This document shows positions 1 through 6,282 of a stretch of 64,000 nucleotides of DNA, piece after piece. The notes under the pieces are model-generated. The model was given only the letters and a program-made list of their open reading frames with translations. It was not told the origin of the DNA and did no database searches. The position numbers and the translations under genes are program-made. The DNA comes from Gaetbulibacter saemankumensis DSM 17032 (lineage in GTDB: Bacteria > Bacteroidota > Bacteroidia > Flavobacteriales > Flavobacteriaceae). The first letter of the stretch is position 1; every line of letters begins with the position of its first letter. The stretch covers positions 248,001 to 312,000 of the forward strand of contig NZ_AUDV01000005.1 in the NCBI RefSeq assembly GCF_000425645.1, given 5' to 3'.

Positions 1-460
1 CGAAGATGAAAAAGGAGATGAACTTCTACTATATTTCATTGAAAGAGGAGATACTTGTGCCATGACCTTATCCTGCTGTATGGGACAAAAGAAAAGTGAA
101 ATTATAGCAATTGCCGAAACCACAACGAAGCTTATCATGATTCCTGTTGAGAAAATGAGTGAATGGATGTGCAAATACAAAAGCTGGCAAAATTTTATTT
201 TACAAAGTTACCATGATAGAATGACTGAACTTTTGGAAGCTATTGATTCCATAGCTTTTTTAAAAATGAACGACCGCGTTTTTAAATACTTAAAGGACAA
301 AGCTATGGTCAATCACAATGATGTTATTACTGTAACGCATCAAGACATAGCCTTCGATTTGCATTCTTCAAGAGTTGTAATTTCCAGATTACTAAAAACT
401 TTAGAGAACGAAGGCAAAATAGAATTGCACAGAAACAGTATTAAAATATTAGACTTATAA
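1..460 (+). CDS. Crp/Fnr family transcriptional regulator, 3' part (5' end outside window)
   Basis: The frame is open from base 2, so the gene starts left of the window. About 152 residues are visible: the end of the cyclic-nucleotide-binding-like sensor fold, a long dimerisation helix and a C-terminal winged helix-turn-helix (HQDIAFDLHSSRVVISRLL). The sensor part carries a compact cysteine group, TCAMTLSCCMG, and no FNR-type N-terminal cysteines can be judged because that part is missing. It sits directly upstream of sulfur oxidation genes whose promoters carry Crp/Fnr-like palindromes, so it is the obvious candidate regulator. A thiol, sulfide or oxygen signal is inference. Confidence 0.88.
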   Translation, partial: EDEKGDELLLYFIERGDTCAMTLSCCMGQKKSEIIAIAETTTKLIMIPVEKMSEWMCKYKSWQNFILQSYHDRMTELLEAIDSIAFLKMNDRVFKYLKDKAMVNHNDVITVTHQDIAFDLHSSRVVISRLLKTLENEGKIELHRNSIKILDL

Positions 461-466
461 AACTAT

Positions 467-510
467 GTAACAATTGTTACTTAGTGCGATTTTTAAGAGC
501 CATAGTTTTG
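467..510 (+). promoter_or_regulatory. Crp/Fnr-like palindrome and -7 box of the tauE/safE-like gene
   Basis: GTAACAATTGTTAC (467-480) is a perfect 14-bp palindrome. A TAnnTTTG -7 box, TAGTTTTG, lies at 503-510. The palindrome centre is 29.5 bp before the first T of the box, which puts it near -42, the class II activator position. The identical geometry recurs at 1332, 2865 and 4471. Confidence 0.75.
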
Positions 511-529
511 TAACGAAAAAAAACGGACT

Positions 530-1327
530 ATGACTCTTTTAGATATATTAGGCTTTGTAAGTGCATTTATAATTGGTATCGTTCTCGGCCTTATGGGTGG
601 TGGCGGATCCATACTTACCGTACCTCTACTCGTTTATCTTTTAGGATTTAACCCCGTAGTTGCTACAGCTTACTCCTTATTTGTTGTAGGTTCTTCATCT
701 ATTGTTGGCGTATTACAAAAACACAAAAAAAAGCTGGTAGATTTTAAAACAGGGCTCGCTTTTTCTTTTCCTTCGTTTCTTGCTGTATATATCTCCAGAA
801 GATATTTAGTGCCTTACATGCCAGAGGATATTTTTAGCATTAATGGTTTTACCTTAACTAAAGATATGGCAATCATGATCTTTTTTGCGGTTGTTATGCT
901 TATTGCTGCAACATCAATGATAAAAAACAAGAAGGACATTGTAAACACCACAGAAGAACAACCATACTACAAGACATTTATTCAAGGGTTAGTTATTGGT
1001 GTCATAACAGGGTTAATTGGTGCTGGAGGTGGGTTTTTATATGTTCCCGCACTTGTACTTTGGGCCGGATTATCCATGAAAAAAGCTGTAGGAACTTCTT
1101 TAGTCATTGTCGCAATAAATTCACTTATAGGATTTTTAGGCGACTTACATAACCTAACCATAGATTGGAACTTTTTATTAGGGTTTTCATTCTTAACCAT
1201 TACTGGTATCCTCTTAGGAGGCTACCTTTCAAAATATATATCGAATAAAAAATTAAAAAAAGGATTTGGCTTTTTTATTTTAATAATGGCCATTTACATT
1301 ATGTTTAAAGAATTCTCAGGCCTATAG
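530..1327 (+). CDS. sulfite exporter TauE/SafE family membrane protein
   Basis: A 265-residue polytopic membrane protein with the two-fold repeat of the TauE/SafE family. The glycine-rich motifs GLMGGGGSILTVPLL near residue 20 and GLIGAGGGFLYVPAL near residue 163 open the two halves. Family members move sulfite, sulfoacetate or other sulfur anions out of the cell. It is followed after about 70 bp by a persulfide dioxygenase with its own matching promoter, so export of sulfite or thiosulfate formed from persulfide is a sensible role. The exact substrate is not readable from sequence. Confidence 0.85.
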   Translation: MTLLDILGFVSAFIIGIVLGLMGGGGSILTVPLLVYLLGFNPVVATAYSLFVVGSSSIVGVLQKHKKKLVDFKTGLAFSFPSFLAVYISRRYLVPYMPEDIFSINGFTLTKDMAIMIFFAVVMLIAATSMIKNKKDIVNTTEEQPYYKTFIQGLVIGVITGLIGAGGGFLYVPALVLWAGLSMKKAVGTSLVIVAINSLIGFLGDLHNLTIDWNFLLGFSFLTITGILLGGYLSKYISNKKLKKGFGFFILIMAIYIMFKEFSGL

Positions 1328-1331
1328 CATT

Positions 1332-1375
1332 GTAACCTATGTTACTGTTTAAGCCTTATTAATAATTTATTTTTG
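1332..1375 (+). promoter_or_regulatory. Crp/Fnr-like palindrome and -7 box of the persulfide dioxygenase gene
   Basis: GTAACCTATGTTAC (1332-1345) has perfect 5-bp arms around CTAT. TATTTTTG at 1368-1375 matches the TAnnTTTG -7 consensus. Centre-to-box distance is 29.5 bp, the same as at 467, 2865 and 4471. The ATG follows 20 bp after the box. Confidence 0.75.
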
Positions 1376-1395
1376 CAACTTAATACAATTTGAAT

Positions 1396-2808
1396 ATGAA
1401 AATAGAACAAATATATACCGGATGTTTAGCACAAGGCGCTTACTATATAGAAAGTAATGGCGAAGTTGCTATTATAGACCCTTTAAGAGAAGTTACACAG
1501 TACGTAAATAAAGCCGAAGCTGATGGCGCAAAAATTAAATATATTTTTGAAACGCACTTCCATGCCGATTTTGTTAGTGGTCACGTAACACTTTCAAAAC
1601 AAACAGGAGCTCCAATTATTTATGGACCAACAGCAAACCCTAGTTTTGATGCCATTGTTGCCGAAGATGGTCAGGTATTCAAATTAGGAAATATCACCAT
1701 TACGGCGCTTCACACACCTGGACATACTATGGAGAGTACCACTTATTTATTAAAAGATGAAAATGGCAAAGACTATGCGATATTTAGTGGAGATACCCTA
1801 TTCCTAGGCGATGTAGGTCGACCTGACTTAGCTCAAAAAGCGGCTAATATGACCCAGGAAGAATTAGCCGGTTTATTATACGAGAGTTTACGAACTAAAA
1901 TCATGACTCTAGCAGACGACGTTATAGTGTACCCTGCGCATGGAGCAGGCTCGGCTTGTGGTAAAAATTTAAGCAAACAAACTGTAGGAAGTATTGGTGA
2001 CCAAAAAGAAACCAATTACGCCTTAAGAGCCGATATGACTAAAGAAGAATTTATTCAGGAAGTTACAGATGGTTTATTACCACCACCACAATATTTCCCA
2101 CTTAACGTTAAAATGAATAAAGAAGGGTACGAAGATATCGATGATGTAATTGAGCGAGGCACAAAACCATTATCTCCAAAGGAATTTGAAATAGTAGCAA
2201 ACGAAACCGGAGCTATTGTTTTAGACGTTCGTCACCAGGATGACTTTGTTAAAGGACACATTCCGAGATCAATTTTCATTGGAATTGACGGTGGGTTTGC
2301 TCCATGGGTAGGAGCTTTAATTGCAGACGTAAAACAACCTATTCTTATCGTAGCTCCTGAAGGTCGTGAAGAAGAAACCATTATCCGTTTATCGCGCGTT
2401 GGTTTCGATAACACTTTAGGTTACTTAAAAGGCGGATTTGATGCTTGGAAAAATAATGGTTTTGAATATGACATCATTTCAACAATTACGGCAGAAGAAT
2501 TAAAAAATAAAATAGAAACTGAAAATGTTCCAGTATTCGATGTACGAAAAGAAGGCGAGTTTAAAGCAGAACATGTAGTAAATGCTCACCATACACCTTT
2601 AGATTACATAAATGATTATTTAACTGAATTCCCTGAAAAAGATACCTTCTACGTACACTGTGCTGGTGGATACAGATCGGTAATTGCTGCTTCCATATTA
2701 AAAAGCAGAGGCATACATAATCTAGTGGATGTTACCAGTGGATTTGCAGCTATTAAAGAAGCGCAACTACCAGTAACAAACTACGTATGCCCATCAACAC
2801 TTAAGTAA
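1396..2808 (+). CDS. persulfide dioxygenase (ETHE1-like MBL fold) fused to two rhodanese domains
   Basis: 470 residues. The N-terminal metallo-beta-lactamase domain has THFHADF at residues 53-59, TPGHT around 107-111 and SGDTLF at 131-136. His54, His110 and Asp133 are the expected single-iron ligands of ETHE1-like persulfide dioxygenases; the second-metal His of HxHxDH is Phe59. Two rhodanese domains follow. The first lacks a catalytic cysteine (VAPEGREEE in the active-site loop), the second keeps Cys422 in HCAGGYRS. The enzyme should oxidise glutathione-type or bacillithiol persulfide to sulfite and exchange sulfane sulfur. ATG at 1396 is preferred over the TTG two codons upstream. The C-terminal rhodanese may make thiosulfate. 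Confidence 0.9.
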   Translation: MKIEQIYTGCLAQGAYYIESNGEVAIIDPLREVTQYVNKAEADGAKIKYIFETHFHADFVSGHVTLSKQTGAPIIYGPTANPSFDAIVAEDGQVFKLGNITITALHTPGHTMESTTYLLKDENGKDYAIFSGDTLFLGDVGRPDLAQKAANMTQEELAGLLYESLRTKIMTLADDVIVYPAHGAGSACGKNLSKQTVGSIGDQKETNYALRADMTKEEFIQEVTDGLLPPPQYFPLNVKMNKEGYEDIDDVIERGTKPLSPKEFEIVANETGAIVLDVRHQDDFVKGHIPRSIFIGIDGGFAPWVGALIADVKQPILIVAPEGREEETIIRLSRVGFDNTLGYLKGGFDAWKNNGFEYDIISTITAEELKNKIETENVPVFDVRKEGEFKAEHVVNAHHTPLDYINDYLTEFPEKDTFYVHCAGGYRSVIAASILKSRGIHNLVDVTSGFAAIKEAQLPVTNYVCPSTLK

Positions 2809-2864: not shown

Positions 2865-2908
2865 GTAACATACGTTACGCTATAACGACTAAAGGTATTG
2901 TATTTTTA
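2865..2908 (+). promoter_or_regulatory. Crp/Fnr-like palindrome and -7 box of the rhodanese-thioredoxin operon
   Basis: GTAACATACGTTAC (2865-2878) has 5-bp arms. The box TATTTTTA (2901-2908, TAnnTTTA) is again 29.5 bp from the palindrome centre. ATG of the rhodanese gene is 20 bp further on. Confidence 0.72.
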
Positions 2909-3875: not shown

Positions 3876-4457
3876 ATGCAGTTATCCGAAAATTATTGGG
3901 ATGACCGATACAAGCACAATGATATAGGTTGGGATATTGGGTATGTATCAAATCCGTTAAAAGCCTATTTCGATCAATTAAATGATAAAAATTTAAAGAT
4001 ATTAATTCCTGGCAGTGGGCATTCGCACGAAGCTGAATATTTATTTAATAAGGGCTTTAAAAATGTTTTTGTCGCAGACCTATCTGAAACAGCTTTAAAT
4101 CAATTTTCTAAGCGCGTTCCTAATTTTCCTAAAGAGCAATTGTTACATGCTAACTTCTTTAATTTAGAAGCAACATTCGATTTAATTATAGAACAAACCT
4201 TTTTCTGTGCTCTTCACCCAGAATTAAGATTGAATTATGCTAAAAAAGTCTATGAATTGTTGAAGCCTTCCGGTAAATTAGTTGGTGTACTGTTCAATAT
4301 TCCCTTAAATGAAACTCACCCTCCTTTCGGAGGCAATAAAGCTGAATATCACGGTTACTTTAAATCATTATTCAATATTAAAACAATGGAACCTTGTTAT
4401 AACTCAATCTCAAAAAGAGCAAATAACGAACTATTTTTTATTTGTATTAAATCTTAA
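3876..4457 (+). CDS. TPMT-family SAM-dependent methyltransferase
   Basis: 193 residues. The N-terminus YWDDRYKHNDIGWDIG and the SAM-binding stretch ILIPGSGHSHEAEYL are typical of the thiopurine S-methyltransferase superfamily, which also includes bacterial enzymes acting on thiols, selenium and tellurium compounds. The ATG lies 1 bp after the thioredoxin stop codon, so it ends the same operon. Methylation of sulfide, a thiol or a toxic chalcogen is the likely chemistry, but the substrate cannot be read from sequence. Confidence 0.85.
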   Translation: MQLSENYWDDRYKHNDIGWDIGYVSNPLKAYFDQLNDKNLKILIPGSGHSHEAEYLFNKGFKNVFVADLSETALNQFSKRVPNFPKEQLLHANFFNLEATFDLIIEQTFFCALHPELRLNYAKKVYELLKPSGKLVGVLFNIPLNETHPPFGGNKAEYHGYFKSLFNIKTMEPCYNSISKRANNELFFICIKS

Positions 4458-4470
4458 TTTGCTTTGCTAT

Positions 4471-4514
4471 GTATCAAATGTTACATAATAATTCATTTTT
4501 TATAAATATTTTTA
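4471..4514 (+). promoter_or_regulatory. orphan Crp/Fnr-like promoter with no gene behind it
   Basis: TATGTATCAAATGTTACATA (4468-4487) is a 20-bp near-perfect palindrome with core GTATC-AAAT-GTTAC at 4471-4484. TATTTTTA at 4507-4514 lies 29.5 bp from its centre, the same geometry as the three gene promoters upstream. No open reading frame above 7 codons follows before the terminator at 4562. Confidence 0.65.
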
Positions 4515-4520
4515 TCAAAA

Positions 4521-4592
4521 TTATGGGAATGATTATACCCATATGAAGATTAATAGCTAATAAAAGCATCTTTTAAAAAAGATGCTTTTTTT
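4521..4592 (+). ncRNA. candidate small RNA, about 70 nt, from the orphan Crp/Fnr-like promoter
   Basis: Transcription from the box at 4507-4514 should begin close to 4521. The RNA would hold a 5' hairpin (TATGGG at 4522-4527 with CCCATA at 4538-4543), a single-stranded AU-rich linker and the terminator hairpin at 4562-4592. The only reading frame is a 7-codon one (ATG at 4523, MGMIIPI), so a leader peptide is possible but a regulatory RNA is more likely. The exact 5' end is inferred and no family is recognised. Confidence 0.45.
4562..4592 (+). terminator. intrinsic terminator (candidate small RNA; also the TPMT operon)
   Basis: AAAAGCATCTTTT pairs with AAAAGATGCTTTT across a tiny loop and ends in a run of seven T. 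It overlaps the last codon of the convergent DUF4870 gene. Confidence 0.88.
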
Positions 4593-4929
4593 AATTTATA
4601 AAGTTAAAAGAAAATGGATACTTAGGAGTTTCTCCATTACTGGTCTTTATCGCATTAACAATAGGATAAACCATAGAGATAATACCTAGAATTATAAATC
4701 CGACTATTCCCAGACCTAACAATAAAATTAATGGAATACATATAATGCAATACACAATTAAACTTAATTGAAAGTTAATAATATTCTTTCCGTGATCATC
4801 CATTTTATAGACCTTATCTTTTTGTGTAATCCATATAATCAAAGGCACCAATAGACTTCCAAAGCCCGTAACCAATGTTATAAGCTGGCTTAAATGAGTA
4901 ATTACTAAAAGTTGATTATCCTGACGCAT
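4591..4929 (-). CDS. DUF4870 domain membrane protein
   Basis: 112 residues with three to four hydrophobic helices. The pattern HLSQLITLVTGFGSLLVPLIIW, then HGKNIINFQLSLIVY, is that of the DUF4870 family, small inner-membrane proteins of unknown function that are common in Bacteroidetes. It is transcribed against the sulfur operon and stands alone. No functional link to its neighbours can be argued from sequence. Confidence 0.85.
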   Translation of the reverse strand: MRQDNQLLVITHLSQLITLVTGFGSLLVPLIIWITQKDKVYKMDDHGKNIINFQLSLIVYCIICIPLILLLGLGIVGFIILGIISMVYPIVNAIKTSNGETPKYPFSFNFIN

Positions 4930-5253: not shown

Positions 5254-6282
5254 ATGCTGAAAAAGCCGGGAATTGACTTAAAAAGGCCTGTTGGTAGTAT
5301 CCTGGTATGTTCTGCATTAATTATGCTGCTTTTCATAATTATAGCGCTCTACTTATTGGGTATTATTCAGTTTAAGTCCTCCTCTCTTATGCCAGATATA
5401 TATTATATGAATTATAATCCCACTTCTTTAGATGATTCCGATACAAATACTCAAATAAAATATGGCTATGATTTATTTAACCAAACTCCAAAATATATAG
5501 GTCCAGATAACGGTAATCCTGAAATGACCTATCAAGGAAACCGATTGGCTTGTAAAAATTGTCATTTAAATTCAGGAACTAAACCATACTCTGCTCCTCT
5601 AATAGGTATTATTCAAAGATTCCCACAATTTAGAGGCCGTGAAAATAAAATTGGCACTATTGAAGAACGCATTAACGGCTGTATGGAACGTAGTATGAAT
5701 GGGAAAATGTTACCGGAAAATAGCAGTGAAATGAAGGCTCTTGTAAAATATCTGGAATTTTTAAGCCGGTATGCTCCTAAAGATGGTAAAATTGAAGGTC
5801 AAGGATTTGTAAAAATAAAAATACCAAATAGAGCTGTTGATTTAAATAATGGTAAACAGGTATTTATAAATAATTGTGTTATATGCCACACGAAAAACGG
5901 GGAAGGCTTAAAACGAGAAAATGCCTTTACCTACGACTACCCGCCATTATGGGGCAATGATTCTTATAATCACGGAGCTGGTATGTCAAGGGTTATTACT
6001 GCAGCCCAATTCATAAAAGCGAATATGCCTTTTGGAACTACTTTTGACAACCCCACACTTACCGATGAAGACGCCTACGACGTAGCAGGCTATATTAATT
6101 TTCAAGAACGACCTAAAAAATTAAATCCAGAGAAAGATTTCCCCGATTTAAAAAAGAAACCGGTATCGACACCATACCCTCCCTATGCCGATAATTTCTC
6201 GGTTGAGCAGCATCAACTTGGTCCATTTCAACCTATAATAAACTACTATAAACAAACGTATAACATCACTAAAACCAAATAA
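5254..6282 (+). CDS. tsdA: diheme c-type cytochrome, TsdA-like thiosulfate dehydrogenase
   Basis: 342 residues with an N-terminal membrane anchor or signal (residues 15-37) and two heme c sites, CKNCH (100-104) and CVICH (208-212). Between them INGCMERSMNG places Cys143 where TsdA enzymes have their unusual Cys heme ligand, and PPLWGNDS...GAGM matches the second half of TsdA. TsdA joins two thiosulfates to tetrathionate, or the reverse, in the periplasm. It leads a three-gene operon with exported DsrE-like proteins (3 bp and 13 bp gaps). SoxA-like diheme cytochromes are the main alternative. Heme supply would come from the CcsA-type system at 19.2-22.3 kb. Confidence 0.85.
   Translation: MLKKPGIDLKRPVGSILVCSALIMLLFIIIALYLLGIIQFKSSSLMPDIYYMNYNPTSLDDSDTNTQIKYGYDLFNQTPKYIGPDNGNPEMTYQGNRLACKNCHLNSGTKPYSAPLIGIIQRFPQFRGRENKIGTIEERINGCMERSMNGKMLPENSSEMKALVKYLEFLSRYAPKDGKIEGQGFVKIKIPNRAVDLNNGKQVFINNCVICHTKNGEGLKRENAFTYDYPPLWGNDSYNHGAGMSRVITAAQFIKANMPFGTTFDNPTLTDEDAYDVAGYINFQERPKKLNPEKDFPDLKKKPVSTPYPPYADNFSVEQHQLGPFQPIINYYKQTYNITKTK

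Follow-up and report, generated by a model that had tools for sequence, protein, structure and literature searches.

A predicted Crp/Fnr-controlled small RNA in a sulfur gene cluster of Gaetbulibacter saemankumensis and its possible RNA partners in the Flavobacteriaceae

What is made from a Crp/Fnr-type promoter that is followed by a terminator and leads to no gene? The question is raised by a locus in the genome of Gaetbulibacter saemankumensis DSM 17032 (assembly GCF_000425645.1, contig NZ_AUDV01000005.1). The window, by which we mean the whole stretch of 64,000 nucleotides that was analysed (positions 248,001-312,000, forward strand), opens with the end of a Crp/Fnr-family regulator gene and a cluster of sulfur genes. 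Its features are listed in Table 1. Pfam was run on ten proteins, and the genes of relatives were named by their similarity to the window proteins or by eye. The metallo-beta-lactamase/rhodanese protein of the cluster is the enzyme which we take to be a persulfide dioxygenase. The signal, related to persulfide and sulfite handling, is inferred from the gene neighbourhood only.

Table 1. Features of the sulfur gene cluster and of the predicted RNA locus, in window coordinates.
Feature	Position	Strand	Basis or remark
Crp/Fnr-family regulator gene, 3' part (HTH_Crp_2)	1-460	+	Pfam
Operator 1, before tauE	467-480	+	motif scan, 22-nt spacing
tauE	530-1327	+	ORF and Pfam
Operator 2, before the persulfide dioxygenase-type gene	1332-1345	+	motif scan, 22-nt spacing
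Metallo-beta-lactamase/rhodanese protein, persulfide dioxygenase type	1390-2808	+	domains by Pfam
Operator 3, before the rhodanese/HMA/thioredoxin/methyltransferase genes	2865-2878	+	motif scan, 22-nt spacing
Rhodanese	start 2929	+	ORF and Pfam
Heavy-metal-associated (HMA) domain protein	start 3278	+	ORF and Pfam
Thioredoxin	start 3578	+	ORF and Pfam
TPMT-type (TPMT-like) methyltransferase	3876-4457	+	ORF and Pfam
Extended palindrome ATGTATCAAATGTTACAT around the fourth operator	4469-4486	+	sequence
Fourth Crp/Fnr-type operator GTATCAAATGTTAC, one change from GTAACN4GTTAC	4471-4484	+	motif scan
-7 box TATTTTTA (TAnnTTT), 22 nt past the operator	4507-4514	+	read from sequence
Predicted small RNA, about 74 nt	4519-4592	+	start inferred from the -7 box, uncertain by a few nt
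6-bp 5' hairpin, TATGGG / CCCATA	4522-4543	+	folding
Conserved unpaired 10-nt core GATTAATAGC (GAUUAAUAGC), seed	4548-4557	+	conservation and folding
Intrinsic terminator, stem 4562-4589 and U tract to 4592	4562-4592	+	terminator scan
DUF4870 gene	4591-4929	-	convergent, downstream of the predicted RNA

The fourth promoter and the RNA predicted behind it

The fourth operator starts 13 nt past the stop codon of the methyltransferase gene, and the distance from operator to TAnnTTT box is exactly 22 nt at all four sites of the cluster. The sequence-only reading had described this site as a fourth sulfur-type promoter without a gene, and the description holds: the spacing is that of the sister sites, and the first plus-strand ORF of at least 60 aa past the methyltransferase starts at 5254, the DUF4870 gene in between being convergent. 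A riboswitch or leader attenuator is ruled out because no co-oriented gene stands directly downstream. DUF4870 genes were also observed near the persulfide dioxygenase gene in four relatives (L064, L073, L115 and L135), where they are co-oriented with it, and the gene is inverted in the window.

In the 3.09-Mb genome, the perfect palindrome with the spacing and the box occurs in three places, all in the sulfur cluster, and when one mismatch is allowed the 4471-4484 site is one of three places genome-wide. With two mismatches allowed, the reversed pattern occurs at least as often (39 versus 29 in all), and a pattern permitting GTATC picks up sites 1, 3 and 4 only. Within the window, GTAACN4GTTAC with at most one mismatch was found 11 times against a shuffle mean of 1.6; the count for a longer palindrome, with as many as three mismatches allowed (10 versus 5.55), is less telling. 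The genome-wide pattern, the window shuffles and the six gene-free relatives described below rule out a chance operator site. The genome also has a perfect GTAACAATTGTTAC at G000:C1:1306353 (L155), where no proper -7 box follows at the 22-nt distance.

Motif and box were also counted in 80 related persulfide dioxygenase loci (L064-L143; named records, mostly Flavobacteriaceae), with at most two mismatches in all and a box spacing of 21-23 nt. There were 207 sites, compared with 11 in the reversed sequence, and at 176 of the 205 sites tested an ORF of at least 80 aa starts no more than 120 nt downstream; some of the remaining 29 precede smaller ORFs, which were seen by eye and not counted. The 207 places where GTAACN4GTTAC and TAnnTTT occur together outline a family-wide sulfur regulon, with small DUF2892-like genes (named by eye) as recurrent extra members. 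The Crp/Fnr-family regulator of the cluster is presumed to bind all four operators of the window. The control of the window RNA is inferred from a motif and a spacing that match those of three cluster genes.

A 5' hairpin, a linker and a strong terminator within about 70 nt had been read from the sequence behind the fourth promoter. These parts were recovered (4522-4543, the core, and 4562-4592) in a predicted RNA of about 74 nt. The fold of the whole RNA has a z-score of -4.06 (0 of 200 shuffles as good), mostly due to the terminator, and the isolated 5' segment folds only slightly better than its shuffles (fraction 0.116 of 500). The core is open, with an unpaired probability of 0.94 and per-base values of 0.95-0.99 in the pairing analysis. 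The same terminator probably serves the methyltransferase operon as well and, read from the opposite strand, the DUF4870 gene. By its sequence the locus thus has what is generally asked of a base-pairing small RNA, namely a promoter and a terminator of its own, no conserved reading frame, and a conserved, unpaired pairing region. At the gathering threshold Rfam found only two tRNAs in the window and nothing in 20 related loci, and a known Rfam family at the locus is ruled out for want of a match.

The same element in other Flavobacteriaceae

The motif, the spacing, the box and TAATAG 20-50 nt further on were searched for in 397 genomes, sampled from the larger family Flavobacteriaceae, in which the genus of the window holds one genome. 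There were 23 matches, spread over 21 genomes; the reversed pattern had none. At 16 of the matches an ORF of at least 60 aa begins 1-29 nt past the predicted start, and at one more it begins at 93 nt. The other six (L206, L207, L212, L213, L214 and L219) are gene-free within 120 nt, with the next starts 126-825 nt away, and all six read ATTAATAGC and then a terminator. Among the 17 gene-linked matches, ATTAATAGC is present in one (L204, inside the gene and without a terminator) and ATTAATAGC with a terminator in none. The window included, the element is found in seven genomes of six genera, G190 and G367 sharing one genus. The small-RNA reading proposed from the sequence is supported by these six other genomes, which share promoter, core ATTAATAGC and terminator with no gene inside 120 nt.

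In three of the seven, including the window, the RNA is directly behind the same methyltransferase; in G094 and G367, as in the window, it follows the thioredoxin-methyltransferase pair. In G190 a small gene separates methyltransferase and RNA. The RNA lies behind rhodanese and thioredoxin in G345, behind two rhodaneses in G314 (whose match is identical to L073, Flavobacteriaceae bacterium PRS1) and behind an unrelated gene in G248. Genes resembling cydA (by eye) were noticed downstream of the RNA in G094 and G345, which is compatible with respiratory stress and proves nothing.

Folding predicts RNA lengths of 66-92 nt across the seven genomes. A 5' hairpin is formed by minimum energy in six of them (not in G248), and the hairpin sequences differ and do not align. 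The shuffle fractions of the 5' segments (of 500) were 0.21 in G094, 0.016 in G367, 0.052 in G190, 0.064 in G345, 0 in G314 and 0.396 in G248, and the core was unpaired with probabilities of 0.79, 0.89, 0.91, 0.93, 0.83 and 0.51 in the same order. The first base of the core is T, not G, in G345. A DNA similarity search with a 161-bp stretch returned mainly AT-rich sequence and terminators, and was useful only for finding the core before other terminators.

The small-RNA reading had been made to depend on conservation in close relatives, and the absence of promoter and hairpins that would have refuted it was not observed. Promoter, core and terminator recur in six genomes, but the 5' hairpins cannot be aligned, and most relatives with the same methyltransferase are without the element, so that its distribution is patchy (six relatives among 397 genomes). 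Sequence and conservation support a promoter, a non-coding build and a conserved core, as well as the exact complementarity of this core to the predicted RNA 5' ends described in the next section. We regard the locus as very probably a real Crp/Fnr-controlled non-coding RNA, with transcription and regulator binding inferred.

RNAs with the core and RNAs with its complement

A broader search pattern (GTTA, the box and ATTAATAGCT) gave 20 matches in 18 of the 397 genomes and 6 for the reversed pattern, as read from the table; this control contains a CG and is weak. Three matches, those of the window, G314 and G345, belong to the class described above. Twelve (L181-L184, L187-L189, L192-L195 and L197) stand, judged by ORF ends, directly behind another Crp/Fnr-type gene and are followed by a terminator. 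One of these second-class loci is in the window's own genome (C2:105207), with a cNMP-binding domain protein and a fumarase as its neighbours by Pfam, and a 465-aa ORF with a fumarase-like start faces the RNA in 7 of the 12. The exact GATTAATAGC is present in 10 of the 12, L181 and L197 differing in the first base. Second-class cores are less open (unpaired 0.25-0.96), and their promoters have a TTAACNNNNGTTAA-like palindrome at the same 22-nt spacing. The five matches left (L185, L186, L190, L196 and L198) were dropped: judged by eye, the word is inside a gene or just ahead of one, and a terminator is lacking.

The window core is exactly complementary to the 5' end predicted for a second, multicopy family of putative short RNAs, the A-type RNAs, defined by the strict pattern TAnnTTT-N5-GCTATTAATC. 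This pattern was present in 134 of the 397 family genomes and in 89 of 237 genera, and the reversed pattern in 6 genomes (table reading); outside the family only 2 of 142 genomes had it, in an order sample of 167. Across 82 contexts of the bare word the box stood at spacing 5 in 12, and each remaining spacing between 0 and 39 accounted for two at most; four of the 12 came from the L271 array, which was fetched because its copies are clustered. A box lay 1-9 nt before the complement in 18 of 103 contexts; for the core the figure was 6 of 103. When the sequence up to 150 nt on was inspected, a terminator lay behind 32 of 53 strict A-type sites, compared with 37 of 480 TAnnTTT sites without the word, and behind 12 of 29 sites with another final base, half of these 12 more than 100 nt on. 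Another script found a terminator within 150 nt of 18 of 33 box-plus-complement sites. In the 80 related loci the bare word shows no enrichment over permuted words (4 versus a mean of 3.8). The reversed-word controls of four word or pattern searches hold a CG and are hence weak; raw counts of GATTAATAGC in eight genomes look enriched relative to the reversed word, but here too the control holds CG, and no weight is placed on these counts.

The own genome contains 27 copies of the core or the complement, each of which was inspected. Five were read as cores followed by a terminator: those of the window and the fumarase locus, C1:1214599, C3:147423 and C5:103807, the last behind a YceI-like gene (named by eye). 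Four were read as complements that stand behind a box, or a sequence resembling one, and run into a hairpin with U's (C1:410876, C1:1202880, C1:1203212 and C2:123145), of which C1:1202880 and C1:1203212 are in tandem. Only two of these four meet the strict box and spacing, and C1:1202880 is without a proper box.

Several arrangements were seen in the wider set. The A-type family reads TAnnTTT-N5-GCTATTAAT[C/T] and then a hairpin, and is sometimes in tandem (L294-L343, L241/L249, L271, and the tandem pair of the own genome); it has recurring subfamilies, for example ...AGTTCTTAGGGAGAATTAT..., in which the hairpin is often without a clear U run. L271 of G190 (C1:1617600-1619700) is a tandem array of four complement-type copies with the box. 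L270 of G345 (C23:97500-100900) contains five tandem core-type copies at distances of 380-750 nt; every copy has GATTAATAGC and a stretch resembling a hairpin with a T run. One of their terminators was called by script and the others by eye. In G190 the core was also found upstream of start codons (L324-L326).

The genomes with core RNAs behind Crp/Fnr-type promoters, 17 from the two core-RNA searches, contain the strict complement pattern in 16 cases (p = 1.8e-7), or 13 of 14 when counted by genus (p = 1.6e-5), with A-type counts read from the table of the pattern search. These values are uncorrected for shared ancestry, which could explain the co-occurrence. The window RNA is predicted to form duplexes with the four A-type RNAs encoded in the same genome, at energies of -14.5 to -18.4 kcal/mol. 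When the 5' part of the partner was put through single-base shuffles, 0-3 of 500 did as well. The A-type seeds are mostly unpaired too (mean 0.82-0.96). A perfect match of at least 10 bp to the predicted 5' ends of these four RNAs, themselves predictions, is what would be required of an RNA sponge. In G071 the core begins with A instead of G, and one A-type copy there ends in T (L358, with a terminator), as pairing predicts; this is consistent and not decisive, because T copies occur in other genomes too.

Proposed mechanism, alternatives and known systems

The best explanation of the whole, to which we give a probability of roughly 0.6, is a Crp/Fnr-controlled RNA that serves as sponge or antisense partner of the A-type RNAs. 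The cluster's Crp/Fnr-type regulator would turn on the small-RNA gene along with sulfane-sulfur detoxification, and the exposed core GAUUAAUAGC would pair with the exposed A-type 5' end NGCUAUUAAUC. The window RNA would act in this way as an inducible sponge or antisense partner, and a sulfur or redox signal may thereby release the mRNAs that are under A-type control. Since the A-type RNAs are built like classical 5'-seed small RNAs, the window RNA is best seen as the partner of these. That it works through pairing of its core with them is probable, the pairing being untested. Sponging as the net effect has somewhat less than an even chance, its direction and the final target mRNAs being inferred, and the reverse direction of control between the two is possible.

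The core of a Crp/Fnr-controlled RNA might instead pair with mRNAs containing GCUAUUAAUC or bind a protein, in which case the A-type sequences would be targets or decoys and not neutralised partners. A single-stranded and conserved core suits this as well, perfect complements do occur in coding regions, and there are a few gene leaders with box plus complement (L294, L312 and L315, by eye). The complements at spacing 5, however, in many cases have a terminator not more than 150 nt on, at the frequencies given above, as expected of short RNAs, and we consider such a mode of action unlikely.

It is improbable that the site is a relic, that is, the promoter of a lost sulfur gene behind the methyltransferase with the operon terminator now standing behind it. 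A same-strand site not more than 900 nt behind the methyltransferase does precede a protein gene in 5 of 35 loci (L004, L007, L092, L105 and L132), and the inversion of DUF4870, co-oriented with the dioxygenase in four relatives, would also fit. Independent loss would not, however, leave the same core and terminator in six genomes with partly different flanks. Core and terminator could also be merely a 3'-UTR element of the methyltransferase operon, acting in RNA stability or as an A-type target site, to which the promoter is additional. The terminator scan found no other plus-strand terminator between 4457 and 4562, and the same core precedes terminators at the ends of ordinary genes (L036, L042 and C5:103807), so that it may be a general 3'-end element. 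This proposal is improbable. The promoter stands directly before the RNA in every one of the seven genomes, also in G248, G314 and G345, where another gene than the methyltransferase lies upstream, although the search by which the six relatives were found required it. A leaderless micro-peptide under the sulfur promoter, either MGMIIPI (seven codons from the ATG at 4523-4525), which the sequence-only reading had offered as an alternative, or MKINS (five codons from the ATG at 4543-4545), can hardly be upheld, as neither frame is conserved, frames and start codons differ among relatives, and G094 and G248, two of the seven genomes, have no ATG between start and core.

FnrS is an FNR-controlled small RNA of enterobacteria, and SroC and ChiX-chb are RNA sponges complementary to a small-RNA seed. 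The likeness to enterobacterial FNR-controlled RNAs suggested earlier stands as regards logic, with a Crp/Fnr-family promoter, exposed pairing regions and an intrinsic terminator in common, and does not extend to kinship as judged by Rfam, in which the FnrS family had no sequence or structure match at the window locus. Unlike FnrS, the predicted RNA has a Bacteroidota TAnnTTT promoter, is located in a sulfur cluster, and has as best partner a small-RNA family, not mRNAs. From SroC and ChiX-chb it differs in being a gene on its own, under a Crp/Fnr-type promoter and in the Bacteroidota, its effect being untested.

The multicopy small RNAs FopS and GibS of Bacteroides have a 5' seed and many paralogues (PMC11697453), and the A-type RNAs, also of Bacteroidota, resemble them in their many paralogues and in a seed in the 5' part. 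In the parts of that article covered, no complementary partner family is mentioned, unlike for the A-type RNAs, and the 70% consensus of FopS given there, GTGTTTTTCATAGTATTAGATTTAAGGTTAACAAA, contains by eye neither GCTATTAATC nor GATTAATAGC. A transcriptome study of Flavobacterium psychrophilum names many Rfp small RNAs, with Rfp18 conserved in the genus (PMC9723704); these and the window RNA are alike as small RNAs of Flavobacteriaceae, with sequences uncompared, and the words Crp and Fnr are absent from the main text of that study. SnoA is described in the covered parts of a preprint as a regulatory RNA of Bacteroides beside the Crp-family HcpR and opposite the hcp promoter; its level is HcpR-independent, and the authors suggest that it works together with HcpR on the DNA of promoters (PMC13370916). 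It shares with the window RNA, as predicted here, a regulatory role, a neighbouring Crp-family stress regulator and the phylum Bacteroidota, and differs in mode of action from what is proposed here. Neither of our two RNA families was found described in Rfam or in the literature searched, outside the scope of which most subscription journals fell, and among the matches listed for the core in four spellings no title concerned flavobacterial small RNAs.

Post-transcriptional control is little known in the flavobacteria, a major marine and soil group. As a tentative picture, to which we give slightly less than even odds, the Flavobacteriaceae may have a two-sided network of A-type RNAs starting with GCUAUUAAUC and RNAs with the complementary GAUUAAUAGC, in which several core RNAs are driven by different Crp/Fnr regulators, sulfur-linked and fumarase-adjacent, and the window RNA is the sulfur-controlled sponge. 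If this is true, the core sequence, the predicted partner family and the two Crp/Fnr inputs are open to testing, and there would be a route from the sensing of sulfur or redox state to an RNA network that spans the family.
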